A stretch of 64,000 bases of DNA from Paucibacter sp. B2R-40 (GTDB lineage Bacteria > Pseudomonadota > Gammaproteobacteria > Burkholderiales > Burkholderiaceae_C), in NCBI RefSeq assembly GCF_025717555.1, contig NZ_JAJIRP010000001.1, positions 310,001-374,000 of the forward strand. Direction: 5' to 3'. Under the pieces are notes generated by a model. That model did no database searches. It saw only the letters and a program-made list of their open reading frames with translations, and had not been told where the DNA came from. Shown piece after piece: positions 3,251 through 63,231 of the stretch; the first letter of the stretch is position 1; each line of letters starts with the position of its first letter. The position numbers were made by a program, and so were the translations under genes.

Positions 3251-3302
3251 GAAGAAACTCCTGGTGGGTAGACAGGGCTTCACTGTAGGATTGCGCCAGC
3301 GA

Positions 3303-3320
3303 AATTTGAATATGCAAATT
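3303..3320. promoter_or_regulatory. candidate LysR-type operator
   Basis: AATTTG-N6-CAAATT is a perfect 6-bp inverted repeat in the 78-bp gap between the divergent DoxX-GST and LysR genes. It sits 9 bp before the LysR start codon. LysR-type regulators bind T-N11-A dyads of this kind. Assigning it to the adjacent regulator is inference. Confidence 0.5.
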
Positions 3321-3328
3321 GACAGACC

Positions 3329-4213
3329 ATGATTGCAAAGACGCAATACAAAATGACGCCGGCCGACTTGGCCGTGGTGCTGGCCCTGGTGCGCGGCAGC
3401 AGCCTGGCCGGCGCGGGCGAGCGCGTTGGCGCCGATGCCTCGACGGTGTTCCGCTCCTTGCAGCGCATCGAGCGCGGCTTGGGGCGGGCCTTGTTCGAGC
3501 GCACGCGTGCCGGCTATATCGCGACCGAGCTGGCTACGCAGCTGGCCGAACATGCCGAGCAATTGGAGGCGACGCTGGAGGCGGCGCGCTCGGCCGTCGA
3601 GACGGCGCCGGCGCAGGTGTCCGGCATCGTGCGCATCAGCAGCACCGACACCATCTTGCACGGCCTGCTGGCCCCCGCATTGGGTAGCTTGCAGCAGCTT
3701 CATCCTCTGCTGAGCTTTGACTTGCATACAGGCAACGAGCTGGTCAGCCTGACCCGGCGCGACGCCGACATCGCGGTGCGCGCCACCAAGCGTCCACCGC
3801 TGCACTTGGTGGGCAAGCAGATCGGGCCGATCCGAGTTGCGCTGTATGGGGCAAGCGGCCGACGCGGCGCCAGCTTGACCGACGTCGAGGCCGGCGCGGC
3901 CGACTGGATCGCTCCTGACGAGGCCTTGCCCGAGCATCCTTCGGTGATTTGGCGCAAGCGTGCCTACCCCAAAGTCTTGCCGCGCTACCGGGTCAGCAGT
4001 ATTCAGTCCGTGCTGGAATTGGTGGCCTTGGGCTTGGGGGTGGGCATCTTGCCGTTGTTCTTGGCTGAGGGGCGCCGTGACCTGACCCGCTTGACCGAGC
4101 CGCTGGAAGATGGCGAGACCGAGCTATGGCTGCTCACCCACCCCGAGTCACGCCATCTGCGCCGCGTTTCTGCCGTTTACAGTCATCTGGCGCAGACCTT
4201 GCGGATGCCGTGA
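3329..4213 (+). CDS. LysR-family transcriptional regulator
   Basis: A 294-residue DNA-binding regulator. The winged HTH lies at about residues 10-68 and includes GAGERVGADASTVFRSLQRI and FERTRAGYIATE. The effector-binding domain starts near residue 95 (VSGIVRISSTDTILHGLLAP) and ends with the usual SIQSVLELVALGLGVGILP. An internal ATG at 3353 (MTPADLAVV) is a possible alternative start. The divergent arrangement with DoxX-GST, plus an inverted repeat between them, suggests it controls that operon and itself. The ligand is unknown. Confidence 0.88.
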   Translation: MIAKTQYKMTPADLAVVLALVRGSSLAGAGERVGADASTVFRSLQRIERGLGRALFERTRAGYIATELATQLAEHAEQLEATLEAARSAVETAPAQVSGIVRISSTDTILHGLLAPALGSLQQLHPLLSFDLHTGNELVSLTRRDADIAVRATKRPPLHLVGKQIGPIRVALYGASGRRGASLTDVEAGAADWIAPDEALPEHPSVIWRKRAYPKVLPRYRVSSIQSVLELVALGLGVGILPLFLAEGRRDLTRLTEPLEDGETELWLLTHPESRHLRRVSAVYSHLAQTLRMP

Positions 4214-5561: not shown

Positions 5562-6658
5562 ATTGGCTCGATACTGAATTCAATCCTCACTCGCACACCG
5601 TGCGGCTCCACCTCGCTCAAGTCCAGCGTGGCGCTTCCGCCATAGGCCCAATGCAAGCGTTCGCGCAAAGCCGCCAGCCCGGTTCCCAAGCCGCGTCCGG
5701 TCGCTTGCAGGCCGACGCCGGTGTCGGTGACCGTCAAGCGGCACTGCCCGCTGTTCAACAGTTCGGCGCTGACATCAATGCGGCCGCCTTCTTCGCTCGG
5801 GTCTATGCCATGCTGAACGGCATTCTCTACCAGGGTCAGCAGCGTCATCGGCGGGCAGCGCAAGAGATGCACGCCGCTGGCGATGTGCAAGTCGAAGGCG
5901 AGGCGGTCGGGCATGCGCATCTGCATCAGTTCCAGATAGGCCCGCACCAATTCCAGTTCCTGGCCCAGCGTATTGGCAGAGCCATCCAAGCGGGGCACGG
6001 CAGCGCGCAGATAGGACGTTAGGCTTTGCAGCAGCTGCGGCGCGCGCGGCGAGCCGGCCTCGACCAGGGCTTGCACATTGGCCAGGGTGTTGAACAAGAA
6101 ATGCGGTTGCGCTTGAGCGGTGAGCAGGCGCATGCGCGCGTCCAGCGCCTGCCGGGCCATTTCGCTGCGTTCCAGTTCGAAGTCTATGGCTTGTTCTTCC
6201 ACTTTGGCCTCCCGTTGGCGCAGCAGTGCTGTCAGGGCCACCCAAGGTGCGAGCAACATGCCGGAAAAGGTCAGGGTCATGAACCCGTTCAAACGATCGG
6301 TGTTTGCCCAAAAAACCGGGGCGCCGGCGGGCGTGCTCAGCTTGTAAATAAAGAACACGGTGATGGGTACCACCACACCCACGGCGGCCACCTGCAGCGC
6401 CCAGCGCGCCAGCCATTTCGGTAGCCGCCGGGGCCACTGCTCGAACACACCGAATGCCAGCAGCACCACCAGGCCGATGCCGAACACCCGCATCACCAAG
6501 CGTTCATAGGCCTGAGGGTTCCAGTTGACACTGAACAGCAAGCTCATCAAGACGCAAATGATGGCGACGGTGCGTACGCGGCGCCAGCCGAACAGGGCCC
6601 GCCAATTGAATGACGTCGATGTTGGCGCGGCTTCGAAAGTGGTGGTGGATGATGGCAT
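5558..6658 (-). CDS. LytS-type sensor histidine kinase (His_kinase family)
   Basis: About 366 residues. The first 170 carry four hydrophobic segments that anchor it in the inner membrane. A cytoplasmic linker then leads to the His_kinase domain with AQAQPHFLFNTLANVQALVE, whose His is the phosphorylation site. The ATPase domain follows, with LVENAVQHGID (N box) and TVTDTGVGL plus GLGTGLAALRERL (G boxes). I took the ATG at 6658 (MPSSTTTFEAA); a longer frame begins at 6709. It is paired with the overlapping LytTR regulator. No extracellular sensor domain is visible, so the signal may be sensed in the membrane. Confidence 0.88.
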   Translation of the reverse strand: MPSSTTTFEAAPTSTSFNWRALFGWRRVRTVAIICVLMSLLFSVNWNPQAYERLVMRVFGIGLVVLLAFGVFEQWPRRLPKWLARWALQVAAVGVVVPITVFFIYKLSTPAGAPVFWANTDRLNGFMTLTFSGMLLAPWVALTALLRQREAKVEEQAIDFELERSEMARQALDARMRLLTAQAQPHFLFNTLANVQALVEAGSPRAPQLLQSLTSYLRAAVPRLDGSANTLGQELELVRAYLELMQMRMPDRLAFDLHIASGVHLLRCPPMTLLTLVENAVQHGIDPSEEGGRIDVSAELLNSGQCRLTVTDTGVGLQATGRGLGTGLAALRERLHWAYGGSATLDLSEVEPHGVRVRIEFSIEPI

Positions 6659-6716: not shown

Positions 6717-7133
6717 TTAACGCCAGCGCTGAGCGGGCTTGCGGAAATAGTGATGCGCGATATAGCGCCAGGGCAGCACCAGCGGCGTCAGCACAATGCC
6801 CATCAAGCAGGCAAAGACGGTCTCTTGCACATTCGGCGTCATCGCCCCACTCAGCCACAGCGGGTAGGCGATCACCAGCAACCACAAAGCTTTCCAGACC
6901 AGTTCATAAATTAGCAATGGCAACATCTGCAGCGGGTAGCGCAGACCCCAGACACAGAGCATGGCCAAGCTGATCAACATTGCAGCCAACTCGCCACGGC
7001 GCTGTGCCCAAAGCTCGCTGTGCTGGAGCATGCTTGGCCCCCAGCTGAGCGCCAGCCCCACCGTGATCAGTAGATAGAAGGCGCGCAACAGATTCAGGCG
7101 CCAGAGGGGGACGTCTTGGTCGGTCATTTTCAT
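6717..7133 (-). CDS. small membrane protein of unknown function
   Basis: A 138-residue protein with about four hydrophobic segments: LLRAFYLLITVGLAL, AAMLISLAMLCVWG, LVWKALWLLVIAYPLWL and VFACLMGIVLTPLVLPW. No family with a known role is recognised. The starts at 7133 and 7127 (MKMTDQ) are both possible. It sits 7 nt after the TPR gene and 58 nt before the sensor kinase gene, so it is probably part of the same operon and could be an accessory to that signalling pair. That link is inference from position. Confidence 0.65.
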   Translation of the reverse strand: MKMTDQDVPLWRLNLLRAFYLLITVGLALSWGPSMLQHSELWAQRRGELAAMLISLAMLCVWGLRYPLQMLPLLIYELVWKALWLLVIAYPLWLSGAMTPNVQETVFACLMGIVLTPLVLPWRYIAHHYFRKPAQRWR

Positions 7134-7140
7134 TGGCCCT

Positions 7141-8175
7141 TCAGCCGAGCTTGGCCAGGCTCTTGCGAGCGTCTTCGACATTGGCCGGGTTGGCCCGCTT
7201 GTTGGCGATGAAGCGCTCGTAAGCGGCCTTGGCCTGCGCCTTGTCGCCCTTGGCCAAATAGGCGTCACCGAGGCGGTGGTCGACGGGCAGTTCGTCTGCG
7301 CCGCCCAGCGTTCTGGCCCGCTCCAAGGTGCGAATCGCCTCGTCCGTTTGGCCCTGCGCGGCGTAGACCCGGCTCAGGCCATAGCTGCCGCTGGCCTTGC
7401 TTGGCTGATCGCGGTGCAGGCCTTCATACAGACTCTTGGCCTTGGCCAAGTCTTTGCTGTCCTTCAAAAAGACCCGCGCCAATTGCATGGTGGCTTCGCG
7501 CACCTCCTCCAGCATGGCGCCATCCTTGCTCGGCTTGAGCGCCAACAACTCACTCTCCATCTCGGCCCATTTCTTGTCTTCGGCGGCAATGTGGACGCGG
7601 ACGATGCGCGCCGTTTCGGGCTGGCTGCTGCGCACGGCGGCCTCCAGCTCCTTGGCCTTGGACACGCTGCCGCCCATCATGCCGGGCACGGTCAGATAGA
7701 GCTTGGCCAGCTGCACCCGGGCCGTGAAGCTGCTTGGATCCAACTCCAGCGCGCGGATCCAGGACTCTTTCAAGCTCCCCACATTGCGCATGGCCTTGGC
7801 CATGCCCATGCTGAGCATCTGCAAGCCGAGGTTTTGCGCCGAGGCCAGGTGGCAAGCCGCCATGTTCGGGTGCTGCTCGACGCACAGCTTGGCTTGCTTG
7901 GCGCCGGCCTCGAGCCGCTTGCCGTCGCCGGCGTCGCTGAAGCTCAAGGCCAAGGACAAAGCTGCGCTGGCCTCGGCATCGGCGGCATTGGCCCTCAATC
8001 GTGTTTGGGCCTGCTGTTCCAGTTCGACAAACTTGCCGGCATCTTGCAGAGACTCCAACTGCACATCTTTGAAGACGGCGGCCTGGGCCGTGCCCAATGT
8101 ACTTAACAAGGCCAGAGCGGCGATAGCGCTGGAGATAGTGCGGCTGCCGCGATGGGAGATGAAAGGCGTTTTCAT
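7141..8175 (-). CDS. exported TPR-repeat protein
   Basis: A 344-residue protein with a signal peptide ending near ALLSTLGTAQAA, so probably periplasmic. The mature part is alpha-helical, with degenerate tetratricopeptide units. Examples are ESWIRALELDPSSFTARVQL, SGSYGLSRVYAAQGQTDEAI and HRLGDAYLAKGDKAQAKAAY near the C terminus. TPR proteins act as scaffolds for other proteins; the partner is not known. The ATG at 8175 fits the signal peptide. It is the first gene of the TPR-membrane protein-kinase-regulator operon and is divergent from the esterase gene at 8470. Confidence 0.72.
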   Translation of the reverse strand: MKTPFISHRGSRTISSAIAALALLSTLGTAQAAVFKDVQLESLQDAGKFVELEQQAQTRLRANAADAEASAALSLALSFSDAGDGKRLEAGAKQAKLCVEQHPNMAACHLASAQNLGLQMLSMGMAKAMRNVGSLKESWIRALELDPSSFTARVQLAKLYLTVPGMMGGSVSKAKELEAAVRSSQPETARIVRVHIAAEDKKWAEMESELLALKPSKDGAMLEEVREATMQLARVFLKDSKDLAKAKSLYEGLHRDQPSKASGSYGLSRVYAAQGQTDEAIRTLERARTLGGADELPVDHRLGDAYLAKGDKAQAKAAYERFIANKRANPANVEDARKSLAKLG

Positions 8176-8469
8176 GGTCGGGTTCCCGGTAGAGTGGGTG
8201 GTCAAATTTCTTAGGACTGGGCCATTGTGTTGAGCCGTCGGCTGGACCGTACGGTGTCTCAGACGAGCGACGAGGCGCAGGCTTTCAGGCACGATGCGGC
8301 GGGACGAGCGGCGCGCAAAGCGGATAAGCCGGTGGCGGCGCCATTGGTCGCAATTGGTCGTAGCGAGGCGTCGCCCGTCCCCGCAAGGGCGTCACCGATC
8401 CGGCATGGCTTGGCCCCGACCGGGCTGCAAGGGCACGGTCGGCCCCGTCACTACACAAAAAGCACCGCT

Positions 8470-9465
8470 ATGAAAAGAGTTCTGCGATTCCTGTTGCGAG
8501 GCTTCTTGAGCCTGCTCGCCCTGTTGGCCGTGCTGACAGGCGTGTTTGCCTACTTTCTCTACACGCCCGATCCGGAACTGCCGCAGCTGTCCGGCAGCTT
8601 GGCCAAGGGCGAGATCGAAGTGGCCGGCGTGAAACGCAGCTACCGGACCTATGTGCCCAAGGGCTTGCCCAAAGGCGCGCCGCTGGTCTTGGTGATGCAT
8701 GGCTCGGGGGAAGGCCCGGGCCAAATCCGCCTCGGCACCGGCTACGCCTTCGAGCGCCTGGCCGATGAACATGGCTTCGCCATCGTTTACCCGAAGTCCT
8801 TCGCCTCCGACTGGAATGACTGCAGCCGGATCGGTGACAAAGAACTGAACAGCGCCAGAAGCGACGATGCGGGCTACTTGGCCGCCCTGGTCGACAAATT
8901 GGTCGCCGAGTTGGCGCTCGACCCGGCGCGCGTGTTTGCGACCGGCGTTTCCAACGGCGGCTCGATGGCGCTGCGCCTGGCGCTGGAGCAGCCCAGCCGC
9001 TACAAGGCGGTGGCCGCCGTGGTCGCCAACGTGCCGGCGCCGCAGAACTTCGAGTGCAAGCCGGCAGCTTTTGCCACCTCGGTGATGATCATGAACGGCA
9101 CAGAGGACCCGCTGGTGCCCTATGCCGGCGGCGAGATCAACCTGCTGGGCCTGTTCTACAAGGGCGGTGAGATTATTTCCTCACGTGCATCGGCGCAGTA
9201 TTTCGCGGACTGGGCTCAGCTGTCCGGTGCACCCCAGACCAGCGAGAAAACCGTCGCCGAGGGCGTGCGCGTCGAGCAGAACCGCTGGAGCCCAGGCCAT
9301 AACGGCAGCGCTGCCAAGACCGAAGTCGAGCTGGTGAGCATTCATGGCGGAGGCCACGGCCTGCCACAGCCTTACTCGAAACGCCCGCGGCTCTTGGGCC
9401 CGTCGCCGATGGAACCGAACGGGCCGGCGCTGATCTGGGCCTTCTTCGAGCGGCAACCCAAGTAA
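8470..9465 (+). CDS. PHB depolymerase/LpqC-type esterase
   Basis: A 331-residue alpha/beta hydrolase anchored or exported by an N-terminal hydrophobic segment (residues 5-30). The domain starts with a RTYVPKGLP strand and PLVLVMHGSGEG oxyanion region. The nucleophile is Ser161 in GVSNGGSMAL. A likely acid is in NGTEDPLVPY, and the His is in HGGGHGLPQ. The family covers extracellular poly(3-hydroxybutyrate) depolymerases and feruloyl-type esterases (LpqC), and substrate cannot be settled from these motifs. The 294-bp gap upstream holds the divergent promoters shared with the TPR operon, and I see nothing else in it. Confidence 0.8.
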   Translation: MKRVLRFLLRGFLSLLALLAVLTGVFAYFLYTPDPELPQLSGSLAKGEIEVAGVKRSYRTYVPKGLPKGAPLVLVMHGSGEGPGQIRLGTGYAFERLADEHGFAIVYPKSFASDWNDCSRIGDKELNSARSDDAGYLAALVDKLVAELALDPARVFATGVSNGGSMALRLALEQPSRYKAVAAVVANVPAPQNFECKPAAFATSVMIMNGTEDPLVPYAGGEINLLGLFYKGGEIISSRASAQYFADWAQLSGAPQTSEKTVAEGVRVEQNRWSPGHNGSAAKTEVELVSIHGGGHGLPQPYSKRPRLLGPSPMEPNGPALIWAFFERQPK

Positions 9466-57599: not shown

Positions 57600-58100
57600 T
57601 CAGTCGTCCAGCAGACTCCTGAGCATCCAGGCCGTCTGTTCATGAACGGTCAAGCGCTGGGTCAACAAGTCGGCGGTCGGCTCATCGGAGGCCCCGCCCA
57701 CCACAGCGAATAGCGCCCGCGCGGTGCGTGCCACGCCTTCATGGCCTTCCACCAGAATGCGCACCATCTCCAAGGCTTTGGGCGGCTTGGCCGGTGCGTC
57801 CGGCAGCGAACTCAACGCGGCAAATTGCGCATAGGAGCCGGGCGCCACATGGCCCAGCGAGCGAATCCGCTCGGCGATCGGGTCGACTGCATTCCACAGC
57901 TCGGTGTACTGCAGCATGAACATCTGGTGCAGGGTGTTGAACATCGGCCCGGTCACGTTCCAGTGGAAGTTGTGCGTGGTCAGGTAGAGGGTGTAGGTGT
58001 CGGCCAGCAGCTTGGACAAACCCAAGCTGATGGCCTCACGATCCTTGGCGCTGATGCCGATATTGATCGCGGCAGATGGGGCGGCAGTCTTTTTGGCCAT
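57600..58100 (-). CDS. dps: Dps-family ferritin-like DNA-binding protein
   Basis: A 166-residue mini-ferritin that stores iron and protects DNA under starvation and oxidative stress. The ferroxidase site is in [20 protein letters not shown] and [18 protein letters not shown], with the His, His, Asp, Glu set intact. A Lys/Ala-rich N-terminal tail ([10 protein letters not shown]) could bind DNA. A partial second copy of its C terminus lies just downstream (57491-57532). ATG at 58100 follows AGGAGCCCCC. Confidence 0.92.
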
Positions 58101-58529
58101 AGGGGGCTCCTGTGTGAATTGGGATGTTCAAGCCATTGGGCAAGCACCACTATAGGGCAGCTGAACGGGCTCAGCGCAGCGCGCTGCCCGGCTTACAGGC
58201 TCAGGCATTCGAGCATTTCTTCACGCCGCACGCATCGCCGCTCGGCTCGGCCGCAAATACCGCTATCCAGCCGCGAGGGCGGCTCTTACACTTGCTCACA
58301 TTCAGGGCACACCCGAGCGAAAGCCGGGGTCGCAAAGCTTCCGGTCTACAGCTTTTTAGCCAAGACAGCGGGGTTGCCAAGCCGAAGCTGGCCATTGCCA
58401 GTACTCTCAAAGAGGGGCTTGAGCACTCCACCGTGCTGGCAGCAGATCTGCTGTTCACCCCCCTCAAGCTGACCCCGCCGCGTCCCGTGTGAACTGAGCT
58501 TTATTCATCAAAGCCGGAGCGCCGCCACC
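58101..58529. other. 429-bp divergent gap with a c-di-GMP riboswitch
   Basis: Lies between dps (leftward) and the metalloprotease (rightward). It holds a GEMM-I aptamer at 58293-58386 and a structured stretch after it: AGCAC-TCCACC-GTGCT, then CAGCAGATCTGCTG, and TTGAG pairing with CTCAA across them. This could be the expression platform. No protein gene here; short frames across the aptamer are chance. Confidence 0.7.
58293..58386 (+). ncRNA. cyclic di-GMP-I riboswitch (GEMM-I)
   Basis: The plus strand reads CAGGGCACACCCGAGC, a GAAAA loop, GCCGGGGTCGCAAAGC, TTCCGGTCTACAGC, then GCCAAGACAGCGGGGTTGCC. This follows the Vibrio cholerae Vc2 aptamer block by block (CAGGGCAAACC, GAAA loop, GGGACGCAAAGCC, TCCGGCCTAA, GGTAGGTAGCGGGGTTACC). 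The position equivalent to Vc2 G20 is G (58306), which favours c-di-GMP over cyclic GMP-AMP, and the A of CGCAAAG and the C after GGTTG are kept. It lies 144 nt before the metalloprotease start. The exact ends of the P1 stem are approximate. Confidence 0.88.
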
Positions 58530-60224
58530 ATGTCCAAGCAGCCCACAAGCAAGTCGAATGCCTTCAACACTTTGCAGGCTCGGCTGCGCAAGGCGCCCCT
58601 CTGGGCCCGCACCTTGACCGGAACGGCGACGCTGGCGCTGGTGGGCGGTGTGACCTTGAGTGTGGTGGCGGAACCGCAGAGCGCGGCCGTGGTGCTCAGC
58701 GCCAATGTCTTGGCTGCGCCGGCCGGGCCGGTCGGCATGGCGGCGCCAAGCGGCGCCATGCCGGAGCTGCTGCCTGCCGTGCAGAGTGCGGCGGTTCAAA
58801 CTGCCGCTGTTTCCGCGCCGGCGTCCAAGCCGCTCGCCGGGATCGAGATGCCGGCCGACTTCATTCCCGCCAACAGCGAAGGTTCGACCGAGCACGCGCC
58901 TTTTGGCCGCATCAAGCTGGCGGCCTTGAGCAATGGCCAGCAAGCCATTGATGCGCTCGGCGAGAATCTGCCCGCTGTTGCCGCCTGGTACGGCAAAAGC
59001 GCCGAAGAATTGACGACGCTGCTGCGCAGCGATAGCACCGTCCATATCGACACGCGCGGTCGGCTCTTATTCATCGACACCGGGGCGGGCAAGGCCGACG
59101 TCAGCCTCAAAGATGCGCACACCCATCATGTCAGCGATGCGAATATGGGCATCACCGAAGCCGGTGACAAAGCCACCATCGGCGTGCCCTCCACCGGCGG
59201 CGCACCGTTCCCGGTGGATCAGACCTTCGCACTGCATTCGCGCAGCAGTTCCTCGCGCATCATCTATCTGAACTTCAAGGGCGAGGGCGCCAAGCCCGCC
59301 TTCGATCTGGACAAAGTGCCGGGCACCTTCAGCGCGGTCGAGCGCGCGATGATCCAGAAAATCTGGCTGCGCGTGGCCGAAGACTATGCCGCCTTCGATG
59401 TCGACATCACTACCGAGGCACCCACCAGCATCGCGGGCAAGACCGGCGTGACGATTCTGATCACCAGCCAGGTCATTGACGCGGGCGGCTATGCCTATTT
59501 GAATTCCTTCGCGGCCTTCAAGGCCAACCCAGCCCCGGCCTTCTGCTTCCAGAACAATCTGGCCAATGCCGAGAAGCCGATCGCCGAATGCTTGTCGCAT
59601 GAATTGGGTCACACCTTGGGCCTGCATCACCAAAGCACCAGTGCGCAAGCCTATTACGGTGGCTCGGGCGATGGCGATACCGGCTGGGCGCCCATCATGG
59701 GCGTCAGCTATTACAAGAACCTCACGCAATGGGCCAAGGGTGAATATTCCGGCGCCACCAACCGCGAAGACGCCTATGCCGTGATGTTGAAGCAGGGGCT
59801 GCCGGCGCGCGTCGATGACCATGGCAATAGCGCCGCAACGGCCAGTGCAATGACGCGCGTCGAAGCCAACGGCCTCGCCAATCTGAGCCGCACCGGCGTG
59901 ATCGAAACGCCTGCTGATGTCGATGTGTTCAGCTTCGTGGCTGGGGCCGGCGCGCTCACTTTGACGGCTTCGCCCTCCAACTGGAGCGGCAATCTGGACC
60001 TGGCACTGGAGCTCAGGGACGCCAGCGGCAAGACCTTGGCCACCGCCAATACGCTGGACAAGCTGGATGCCAGCATCACCACCAAGTTGGCAGCGGCAGG
60101 CACCTACTATCTCTTTGTCAAGGGCGCCGGCAAGGGCAATCCGCTGCTGGCCGGCGGCTATAGCAACTACGGCTCCATCGGCCAATACAGCATCGTCGGC
60201 ACGGCCGCGCTGAAGGCCAAGTAA
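58530..60224 (+). CDS. secreted zinc metalloprotease with C-terminal PPC domain
   Basis: A 564-residue exported protease. A long basic N terminus leads into a signal or anchor segment (TLTGTATLALVGGVTLSVVA). The metzincin-type motif HELGHTLGLHH has zinc ligands His357, His361 and His367 and catalytic Glu358, and the Met-turn is likely Met390 in PIMGVSYY. A pre-peptidase C-terminal domain (about 450-560; TPADVDVFSFVAGAGALTLT and AAAGTYYLFVKGAGKG) follows. It acts outside the cell. Its leader carries a c-di-GMP riboswitch, so output should follow c-di-GMP level. Start ATG at 58530 after AAGCCGGAGC. Confidence 0.9.
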   Translation: MSKQPTSKSNAFNTLQARLRKAPLWARTLTGTATLALVGGVTLSVVAEPQSAAVVLSANVLAAPAGPVGMAAPSGAMPELLPAVQSAAVQTAAVSAPASKPLAGIEMPADFIPANSEGSTEHAPFGRIKLAALSNGQQAIDALGENLPAVAAWYGKSAEELTTLLRSDSTVHIDTRGRLLFIDTGAGKADVSLKDAHTHHVSDANMGITEAGDKATIGVPSTGGAPFPVDQTFALHSRSSSSRIIYLNFKGEGAKPAFDLDKVPGTFSAVERAMIQKIWLRVAEDYAAFDVDITTEAPTSIAGKTGVTILITSQVIDAGGYAYLNSFAAFKANPAPAFCFQNNLANAEKPIAECLSHELGHTLGLHHQSTSAQAYYGGSGDGDTGWAPIMGVSYYKNLTQWAKGEYSGATNREDAYAVMLKQGLPARVDDHGNSAATASAMTRVEANGLANLSRTGVIETPADVDVFSFVAGAGALTLTASPSNWSGNLDLALELRDASGKTLATANTLDKLDASITTKLAAAGTYYLFVKGAGKGNPLLAGGYSNYGSIGQYSIVGTAALKAK

Positions 60225-60237
60225 AGCGACGCGGCCG

Positions 60238-62997
60238 TTAGGCCAGCGGCCGCATTGTTTCAATCCGCAGCCATCCGGCGTTAGCACTGGCCTGGGGTGA
60301 CAGCAAAAGTTCGCTGACATCGCCCAGGGCCGGGGTTTTCGCCGTGGCGCTTAAACCCACCCAGGCATTGCGGCCGCTGCGTTTGGCCATATAGAGCGCT
60401 TGGTCGGCCAGCCCGACCACTTGCTGCCAGTCCAGGCGCTCGGGCTGAGCGGCGATGAAGGGCAGGGACGCAAACCCGACCGAGCAAGTCAGCGCCAAGG
60501 GCGCGGCCGCTTCGATCTCAAACGGCTGCTGCGTCACGGCAACGCGGATGCGTTCGGCAAAATCGGCCGCAGCACTCGCATTGGTGGCGCGCGCCACCAC
60601 CAAAAACTCCTCGCCGCCCCAGCGCACCAGATAGTCGGAATCGCGGCAGGCCTGCCGCAAGCGCGCGCGCATCTGCACCAGCACCGCGTCGCCTGCCGGG
60701 TGGCCCCAGTCGTCATTGACGTGCTTGAAGTGGTCGATATCGACCAGCAAAAAGATCAGATCCGCATCTTGCGGCGCGGGCTGCACCGGGTGGCGCCGCC
60801 AGTCCTCGTAGTGGCGCAGACATTGGCTGATTTCGCCCGCCAGGTTCTGCTCCAGAAAGCGTCGGTTGCGCAGGCCGGTCAGCGGGTCGGTCAGGCTGAT
60901 GTCCTTGAGCGACTGGTAAGCGCGCTCCAGCTCCTGGTTCTTGTCCAAGACCTCGGCCTGCGCCTGGTGCAGGCTGACCAGCGTGGCTTCCAGGCGCCGA
61001 TAGTTCTGGGCGTTATCAATAGCGATTGCGCCATAGGCGGCAAGGCTGCGGAAAATCAGCCGCTCGCGGTCCGCATAAGCTTGCGCCTGGGTCGACTGGA
61101 TCGACATCACGCCCAATAACTGCTCGCCGGCGATCAAGGGCATGAACATCGCGCTGAGCGTTTGCTGCGTGCCGGGTATGGGGTTGTTCTGGCCCTTTGG
61201 ATCGATCTCGAGAAAGATCTCGTGCCGCTGGATCGCGCAACGCACGCTGTTGGCGCTTGGGTGCGCCATCGGAATGGAAAAACTCGCCATGCGTTGGCCG
61301 TCCTCCGCGCCATAGGCCAAGACCAGATTCTCGCCGGCCGCGTCGAGCAAATAGACGCTGAAATGGCTGGCCGCCAAAAGACCGTGCACATTGCGGTTGA
61401 GGGTTGCATAGACCGCCGCTTCGTCCAGATGGCCGGTTATTTCCTGGCCGATCACACTCAGGCGCCCGAGTGTGGCGCTGGTCTGACTCAGCAGCTCGCT
61501 GCGCTCGGTGTGGAACTTGGTCTCCAGCAAAATTTGGCGTTTGCTGACATCCTGCCCGTGCACCGCTTCGCTGGCGGCGCGCGCTCTTTGGGCGTAGGCA
61601 TAAGCTTGGGCGTGATCGCCCAGCTTCGCGTATTCGGCTGCGATCGCGTCAAACACGCTGGGCGGAACGCCCTCCGTTTGCAGCTCGGGCGGGAAAGCCG
61701 CCAGCGACTGCAAGAGAAAGTGCAGGCTGGCGCTGGCCGCCTGCATGTCCGGCGGTGCGGGCAGGCGGTGCTGGCTGTGCAGCCTGGCCAAGGTGCCGAG
61801 CGCATCCGACAGATGCAAGGGCAGGTCGGCCCCCCGGGCCAGTTGCAGCGCCGTGTTGGCGGTGGCCAGGGCTTCGTCGGGCCGACCCAATTCGGACAGC
61901 GACAAGGCCGCGACCGCCAAAGCATGCAGGCGCAAATCCAGCGGACGCGCTTCGGCGGCGGGGGCATCGAACTGCCGCGCCGCCTCGAGGGCGGCTGCGG
62001 GTTGCTGCATATCGCGTTGCAATTCGGCCAGATAGACCAAACCGAGCGCAAAGGTGCGTGAGTGCTTCAGCGGTTCAAGCAGGGGCAAGGCTTCGTTCAG
62101 CGCGGCCTGGGCCGCTTCAAATTGTTTCAGCGAGCGTTGCACGCTGCTGACCTGCAGCAAGGCATTGCCCAGCACCAGGGGCCAGCCGGTCGAACGCGCC
62201 AGCGCCAGGCTGCGTTGCATCCATTCCAGCGCCTGGGTGTCGTCGTTGAGATTGGCGTAGGCCACGCCCAACAGCGTCATCGACAGCGCGATCTGGCGCA
62301 CCATGCCGGCCCGCTTCAGCGGGCCGACGGTATGGCTGCAGATTCGAAAGACGGCCGCAAAGTCGGATTTCTGCAGCGCCTCAAAGGTCAAAAATTCATT
62401 GCACATCACATGCAGGGCCGGGTGCGCAGGCTTTGCCAGCAGCTCACGCACCTGCGCCCCCCATTGCGCCGATGCGGCCGGGGTGTTCTGGCGCAGCGCG
62501 GCATGGGCGATGCACAGCTGCGCGAATTCCATCCGGAAGTCGTCGCCGCTGCCGACGGCCATGGCGGCGGTCGCATCCAACTCGGCATAGCGCCCGGCCA
62601 AGTCACCACGGTCACCGGCGATGTGGGCCAGCAGCAAATGGGCATCGGCCAGGACCAAGATGTCGGGCAGGCGTTTGGCTTCTTGAATGATGGCCCTCGT
62701 TTGGCTCTCCGCCAGGTCGAGTTCGGCAAACAGCCAGTGGCATTCGGCCAAGAGCAGCTGCAGGCGCAGCCTATGGCGGGCAGTCTGCGGGTCATCAGCC
62801 GAGCCCAATGCCAACTCGGCCAGCGCCTGCTGGGCCAAAGACACCGCGCGGCGGCTATCGCGTTCACGCAAATGCCAAGCCAAGGCCACCTGGTCGGTAC
62901 TTGGCACATGATTGGTTTGGCGCGGCATGCTGGTGCCGGTGCTGGCAAGCCTAGCCTCCAGCTGGGCAAAATCGTCGTCGGTCAAAAATAGCTGCAT
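60238..62997 (-). CDS. TPR-GAF diguanylate cyclase (GGDEF)
   Basis: A 919-residue cytosolic enzyme that makes c-di-GMP from two GTP. The first 520 residues are tetratricopeptide-like helices (GVAYANLNDDTQALEWMQRS, NEALPLLEPLKHSRTFALGL). A GAF domain (about 555-700; VHGLLAASHFSVYLLDAAGE) and a coiled linker follow. The GGDEF domain has LTDPLTGLRNRRFLEQNLAG, active site GGEEF at 794-798, and the product-inhibition RxxD site RDSD at 785-788. No membrane segment or EAL domain. It converges on the riboswitch-controlled protease, with stops 13 nt apart. ATG at 62997 was chosen over a longer frame. Confidence 0.93.
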   Translation of the reverse strand: MQLFLTDDDFAQLEARLASTGTSMPRQTNHVPSTDQVALAWHLRERDSRRAVSLAQQALAELALGSADDPQTARHRLRLQLLLAECHWLFAELDLAESQTRAIIQEAKRLPDILVLADAHLLLAHIAGDRGDLAGRYAELDATAAMAVGSGDDFRMEFAQLCIAHAALRQNTPAASAQWGAQVRELLAKPAHPALHVMCNEFLTFEALQKSDFAAVFRICSHTVGPLKRAGMVRQIALSMTLLGVAYANLNDDTQALEWMQRSLALARSTGWPLVLGNALLQVSSVQRSLKQFEAAQAALNEALPLLEPLKHSRTFALGLVYLAELQRDMQQPAAALEAARQFDAPAAEARPLDLRLHALAVAALSLSELGRPDEALATANTALQLARGADLPLHLSDALGTLARLHSQHRLPAPPDMQAASASLHFLLQSLAAFPPELQTEGVPPSVFDAIAAEYAKLGDHAQAYAYAQRARAASEAVHGQDVSKRQILLETKFHTERSELLSQTSATLGRLSVIGQEITGHLDEAAVYATLNRNVHGLLAASHFSVYLLDAAGENLVLAYGAEDGQRMASFSIPMAHPSANSVRCAIQRHEIFLEIDPKGQNNPIPGTQQTLSAMFMPLIAGEQLLGVMSIQSTQAQAYADRERLIFRSLAAYGAIAIDNAQNYRRLEATLVSLHQAQAEVLDKNQELERAYQSLKDISLTDPLTGLRNRRFLEQNLAGEISQCLRHYEDWRRHPVQPAPQDADLIFLLVDIDHFKHVNDDWGHPAGDAVLVQMRARLRQACRDSDYLVRWGGEEFLVVARATNASAAADFAERIRVAVTQQPFEIEAAAPLALTCSVGFASLPFIAAQPERLDWQQVVGLADQALYMAKRSGRNAWVGLSATAKTPALGDVSELLLSPQASANAGWLRIETMRPLA

Positions 62998-63231
62998 GGG
63001 CGCAAATCGGCGTCGTGGGTGAGTTTCGGGGTCGGGCTTGGGCCTTGCCAAAACATTGATTATTCCGTCTTTGCCACCTCTTGATCGGCCGAAAACCGAC
63101 CGAGGCCGTACCAGCACGCGCCGCCAAGCGTTGTGCCGAGCCTCCCAAGCAGGGTTTGCCTCGGGGCGCCGCAGCGGTCTGCGGTCTTATCCTCAGCTTT
63201 GCTCTTCAAACCTTGCTGCCCAGGAGACGCC

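Follow-up and report, generated by a model that had tools for sequence, protein, structure and literature searches.

A c-di-GMP-I riboswitch lies in the leader of an exported-type protease gene in Paucibacter sp. B2R-40 and most likely works as an OFF switch at the level of translation. We put the probability of this reading at about 0.65, on the strength of folding predictions together with a Shine-Dalgarno (SD) hairpin and a switch strand that are conserved in Oxalobacteraceae-type leaders of related genes. The riboswitch is real, its class is ordinary and its target is sensible; its polarity and function are what we infer from the leaders.

Aptamer, protease gene and neighbourhood

The window, that is, the whole 64-kb stretch of DNA analysed, was scanned against Rfam 15 with cmscan. 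The only family at gathering threshold was RF01051 (c-di-GMP-I, or GEMM-I), which scored 68.0 bits (E 3.6e-11; gathering cut-off 35 bits) at positions 58296-58381 (+), with all 87 model positions covered (1-87). The initial annotation had proposed a GEMM-I aptamer upstream of a metalloprotease gene, and the covariance-model match confirms it: after a gap of 148 nt, the protease ORF follows on the same strand at 58530-60224. The aptamer has the P2 GAAA loop and the GCAAA of J2/3. Also as annotated, a G occupies the ligand-specificity site at 58306 (+; aptamer position 11), which we take to be the equivalent of Vc2 G20. This column is invariant in 19 of 19 aligned protease-linked aptamers, a set from which the aptamer of the upstream paralogue at L062 was left out, and so are the pocket columns 58334 (A) and 58377 (C); the three presumably correspond to G20, A47 and C92 of Vc2. 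Because of the G at the G20 equivalent, the ligand is expected to be c-di-GMP and not cAMP-GMP. The genome holds two RF01051 matches in all, the second of which (L049, 9053-9157, -) lies before a chemotaxis-receptor-like Cache-HAMP ORF (6778-8832).

The ORF encodes a protein of 564 aa with the motif HELGHTLGLHH and a C-terminal PPC domain (PF04151, above the Pfam cut-off). The residues of the HExxHxxGxxH zinc site and the Met-turn (H357, E358, H361, G364, H367 and M390) are invariant in all 13 aligned orthologues, and PKD is also present in seven of the 13. Reprolysin_5 (PF13688) scored 23.1 bits (E 1e-4), under the Pfam cut-off of 27, and a filing under peptidase M12 was therefore dropped. 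As the full-length AlphaFold model was poor (pLDDT 54.8), structure comparison rests on a model of the catalytic domain (27 sequences; pLDDT 85.9, pTM 0.86). Its best PDB matches are metzincins (adamalysins, myroilysin and serralysins), at a moderate level of similarity (best E 5e-5, TM at most 0.51, rmsd around 7), and a profile search agrees with this class (best 1.6e-4, alkaline protease). Motif, Met-turn and the moderately matching modelled fold mark the protein as a metzincin-type protease, which is probably exported, judging from an N-terminal hydrophobic stretch (seen by eye) and the PPC domain. A plasmid collection searched with the 2.1-kb leader-plus-gene segment gave no match, which leaves a plasmid origin of leader and protease unsupported.

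Just 3' of the gene, a consensus scan placed a terminator-like hairpin at 60231-60253 (+), a weak call considering that the scan returned three sites in 58100-60400 on both strands against 2.1 expected. The convergent neighbour (60238-63117, -) encodes a TPR-GAF-GGDEF protein (GGDEF E 2.6e-39; GGEEF signature by eye), which is a possible source of c-di-GMP. GGDEF genes lie beside the protease in the window and at L047, L052, L056 and L057; a shared-neighbour search across the protease loci returned only these, with no common adhesin or substrate gene. Such adjacency carries little weight, since GGDEF matches number 66 in the genome itself, of which two pairs are split and one scores under the cut-off.

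Conservation of the aptamer-protease pair

The initial annotation had proposed looking for the same leader ahead of homologous proteases in related genomes. This search was successful: the aptamer was found at 20 Burkholderiales protease leaders, two of them on tandem paralogues of Undibacterium fentianense (L062), each of which has an aptamer of its own (3281-3385 and 5614-5697). Among 26 homologue loci on genome contigs, 13 have RF01051 just 5' of the protease, all in Burkholderiales. Ten have no RF01051 upstream, namely L063 from Janthinobacterium and nine from other orders, and at three (L060, L074 and L075) the sequence 5' of the gene is too short for a verdict. In the L063 leader (5700-6000), inspected by eye, a P2-like hairpin and GGTAGC are kept and the pocket strands are lost, so that it looks like a decayed aptamer.

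Within the family, 18 of 399 genomes gave a protease match, and 15 of these matches are orthologues (identity at least 47%). RF01051 stands directly upstream of six of the 15; the other nine have no aptamer, either at gathering level or when searched with a model based on the aptamers linked to the protease, nor do any of the four paralogues of 31-33% identity in this survey. Only 115 of the 399 genomes contain RF01051 anywhere. In a quick protease tree (41 rows, SH-aLRT support only), the aptamer is present in 14 of 16 genes of the window's clade and in 5 of 16 of its sister clade. One of the two exceptions in the window's clade is truncated by a contig end and the other seemingly has an aptamer remnant; eight of the nine aptamer-less survey orthologues are in the tree, all in the sister clade. 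Aptamer presence changes five times along the tree, compared to a mean of 14 for shuffled labels. Several gains, or one gain followed by losses, would be compatible with this tree.

The nearest named relative is Paucibacter sp. TC2R-5 (L052; NCBI now places the name Paucibacter under Roseateles), whose protease is 82% identical. Differences between the two aptamers are nearly confined to their first few bases and the loop at the tip of P3, whereas their flanks diverge. Two further observations concern single loci: the protease gene at L069 (5692-7266), from a metagenome-assembled genome, is in pieces with stops, and two copies of RF02278 (Betaproteobacteria toxic sRNA) lie 5' of the protease at both L059 (2747-3122) and L063 (4943-5795).

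Two predicted states of the leader

Folding predicts two competing states for the window leader. In the unbound minimum-energy fold, a candidate anti-aptamer strand, AAGCUGACCCCG (58466-58477, +), pairs with the GGGGUC..AGCUU strand of the aptamer, whose 5' half is paired to the stretch from AAGCUGACCCCG onward. Emergence of this strand, and then of the one after it, lifts the cost of keeping the aptamer folded from 6.9 kcal/mol to 12.0 and 16.8 kcal/mol. In the platform hairpin region (GAGGGGCUUGAG ... CCCCCUCAAGC; 58412-58469, +), L052 has an identical 5' arm and a partly changed 3' arm. If the aptamer is constrained to its fold, a candidate anti-SD strand (58481-58490, +) pairs with the SD region GCCGGAGCG (58513-58521, +; core GGAG at 58516-58519), with values of 0.55-0.91 for the individual base pairs and the A of GGAG unpaired; the corresponding pairing in L052, between GGAGCG and CGCUCC, has values of 0.77-0.98. 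The 15-nt SD block UCAAAGCCGGAGCGC is fully identical in the two leaders.

The annotated structured stretch with alternative pairings thus stands as far as the two states are concerned, but the overall complementarity between aptamer and platform does not: their hybrid energy in the window is not beyond that of shuffled sequence (fraction 0.29). The unbound fold lies about 14 kcal/mol below the aptamer fold in thermodynamic energies, so a real switch would have to be co-transcriptional and kinetic. A consensus scan of the leader between aptamer and start codon (58382-58529) found no intrinsic terminator, and a switch of that kind was rejected.

We compared the two states across the 20 leaders, with start codons chosen by eye, which for L085 and L082 were misplaced by one base. 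In 17 leaders the SD region becomes more costly to open once the aptamer is held folded, by 2.1 kcal/mol in the window and 3.9 kcal/mol in L052; the exceptions in sign are L066 (-0.1), L046 (-0.8) and L085 (-0.1). Each leader was set against 40 platform shuffles (L046 against 15): the change is above the shuffle mean in 18 of the 20 and falls in the top 5% of shuffles in nine (window 0.05, L052 0.03). The sign alone is a weak indicator, as the shuffle mean is itself positive in 12 of the 20. For the hybrid energy between aptamer 5' half and platform, where the starts of L085 and L082 were corrected, four leaders come to about the top 5% of shuffles and 16 do not, an outcome mostly at chance.

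Switch strand in Oxalobacteraceae-type leaders

In 11 Oxalobacteraceae-type leaders (L055-L059, L061, both copies at L062, L064, L066 and L069), the SD lies within a hairpin, CCUUUGU/ACAAAGG, with compensatory changes at two pairs. The outer pair is C-G in four leaders, U-A in four, U-G in one and mismatched in two (L059 and the L062 upstream copy); the pair two further in from the end of two constant C-G pairs is U-A in ten and C-G in the L062 upstream copy. At L063, which has no scorable aptamer, the SD hairpin is also missing by eye. At L059 (5570-5668), the hairpin precedes a 13-codon ORF, possibly a leader peptide, instead of the protease start, and the two-state folding scored that SD. 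In several of these leaders the hairpin persists in the predicted unbound fold, too.

Directly 5' of the hairpin stands a switch strand, GCGU-N0-4-G[C/U]CC, present in 10 of the 11 leaders in strict form and in all 11 under a looser pattern; the expectation in shuffles is 0.066, and the leaders are related, so these are not independent events. Its two halves are complementary to the aptamer pocket strands ACGC (J2/3) and GGGC (with G20), and the L062 upstream copy has both pairings in its unbound minimum-energy fold. Invariance of the aptamer halves puts this pairing beyond the reach of covariation. The motif occurs 34-44 nt before the start at only 1 (L012) of 26 readable loci among 31 other riboswitch loci, which indicates that it is not general; starts were called mechanically in this check, and L029 was read on the wrong strand. 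The platform of the window and L052 differs from the Oxalobacteraceae type, whose evidence does not carry over to it directly, and is itself weaker evidence for an OFF switch.

Proposed mechanism and alternatives

With c-di-GMP bound, the aptamer would be locked and the anti-SD strand free to cover the SD, so that translation would stop. With c-di-GMP absent, the anti-aptamer/anti-SD strand would pair into the pocket strands and the SD would be freed. The protease would be shut off at high c-di-GMP, as in a biofilm, and would become available for cleaving surface or matrix proteins once c-di-GMP falls. A role in biofilm formation or dispersal, as initially annotated, is plausible, and the evidence leans to OFF at high c-di-GMP. 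A parallel for this polarity is found in Clostridioides difficile, whose class I riboswitches, including that of zmpI, are mostly OFF (PMC6200980).

The opposite polarity is conceivable but unlikely. As an ON switch, the P3 5' strand of the unbound aptamer, GCUUCCGG, would pair with the SD (CCGGAGC), and ligand binding would form P3 and free the SD. This CCGGA/UCCGG pairing is possible in both Paucibacter-type leaders, in keeping with the full conservation of their 15-nt SD block, and forcing it in the window costs 1.2 kcal/mol relative to the unbound ensemble, where the SD bases are paired with P3 at 0.14-0.31. However, the same pairing costs 6.8 kcal/mol in L052, another strand covers the SD of both leaders once the aptamer is held folded, and the Oxalobacteraceae-type SD (ACAAAGG) offers no such pairing. 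Control that is mainly transcriptional, for example Rho-dependent termination upon a translation block, is improbable: the leader has a C-rich segment and C. difficile class I switches alter transcript abundance (PMC6200980), but the consensus scan found no intrinsic terminator and the conserved SD pairing of the relatives points to translation.

We see very little room for a relic aptamer without regulatory effect; some orthologues do lack an aptamer and the L063 leader looks decayed, yet the aptamers of the window and L052 have stayed near-identical despite their diverging flanks, and the aptamer is kept in 14 of 16 genes of the window's clade and on both L062 paralogues. It is hardly credible that the aptamer senses 3',3'-cAMP-GMP as a GEMM-Ib riboswitch, which has A at position 20: the specificity position is G in 19 of 19 aptamers, and this ligand was rejected on the G at 58306. 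Variants of that type do occur within the original GEMM collection (PMC7266159).

Riboswitch targets in relatives

We inspected 30 riboswitch loci of relatives (L003-L032), one top-scoring match per genome and hence a non-random sample of the 100 matches in 148 genomes. As the target we used the longest ORF in the 600 nt downstream. Exported-type serine proteases follow the riboswitch at 14 of the 30. Nine of these are S53 sedolisin-like (L004-L008, L010, L011, L013 and L030) by BLAST to L095/L096, of which L095 matches sedolisin-family structures at 2.6e-12; a Pfam scan of the nine ORFs gave no peptidase match. Several S53 proteins start with a lipobox-like stretch (by eye) and may therefore be surface lipoproteins. 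The S53 loci (aptamers near 1501-1600) include the best-scoring riboswitches of six genomes of the window's genus. The remaining five proteases are S8 subtilases (L009, L015, L020, L021 and L027).

DUF1631, possibly a member of the c-di-GMP pathway, is the target at six loci (L003, L017, L019, L022, L025 and L029), and curlin, Hpt, response regulator-PilZ, GspH, ankyrin and cellulase families account for six more. No family was found for the downstream ORF at three (L014, L024 and L031), and L016 was left out of the family scan. L012 has two c-di-GMP-I riboswitches 0.8 kb apart (G003:C23:503377 and 504213), one of them before a curlin-repeat ORF.

A broader proposal, which we advance tentatively and at less than even odds, is that Burkholderiales c-di-GMP-I riboswitches form an exported-protease regulon. 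They would have been recruited separately to at least three unrelated families (metzincin, S53 sedolisins and S8 subtilases) as translational OFF switches that hold proteolysis back in biofilms and release it on dispersal, and in Oxalobacteraceae a single switch strand would mimic both pocket strands. The protease pattern across riboswitch loci is the part most worth follow-up.

Comparison with known systems

The Vc2 and Vc1 riboswitches of Vibrio cholerae belong to the same aptamer family and share the pocket residues of the window aptamer; their target genes differ from the protease found here. With adamalysin/reprolysin, serralysin and myroilysin, its best structural and profile matches, the protease shares HExxHxxGxxH and the Met-turn. 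Unlike in those metzincins, identity is only 10-19%, with TM values of 0.36-0.51 among the best 25 structural matches (0.40-0.46 for the serralysin type). The genome also has one match to Peptidase_C93, which we take to be the LapG family. In the LapD-LapG circuit, low c-di-GMP frees a protease that cuts an adhesin (PMC5741744); there the components are a protein receptor and the LapG protease, here an RNA and a metzincin.

Among the literature matches listed, with subscription papers mostly outside their scope, there was no Burkholderiales riboswitch-protease case. A survey of regulatory RNAs in 24 lineages, including Burkholderia and Ralstonia, reports 89 GEMM sites, and its main text contains neither 'protease' nor 'peptidase' (PMC3766115); a V. 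cholerae riboswitch reporter study is unrelated to the protease case (PMC12456836).

The closest precedent is zmpI/PPEP-1 of C. difficile, a secreted zinc metalloprotease under the class I c-di-GMP riboswitch Cdi-1-12 (PMC6366702, PMC6200980), whose transcript changes -62.6 fold at high c-di-GMP, that is, OFF (PMC6200980). Given this published case, the link between riboswitch and metalloprotease is less unusual than the initial annotation held; what sets the present one apart is the lineage and probably the platform. Both systems place a class I aptamer before a secreted-type zinc metalloprotease. They differ in phylum and in that the zmpI effect is on transcript abundance, whereas control here is probably translational. 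ZmpI has known adhesin substrates, one of them encoded next door; the window protease is a metzincin with a PPC domain. The leaders described here connect c-di-GMP to exported proteolysis through an RNA that is conserved within a large order and open to direct testing, with a conserved switch strand that yields a precise mutational prediction. Together with zmpI, they would be a case of convergence, in which the same class of aptamer serves the same task.
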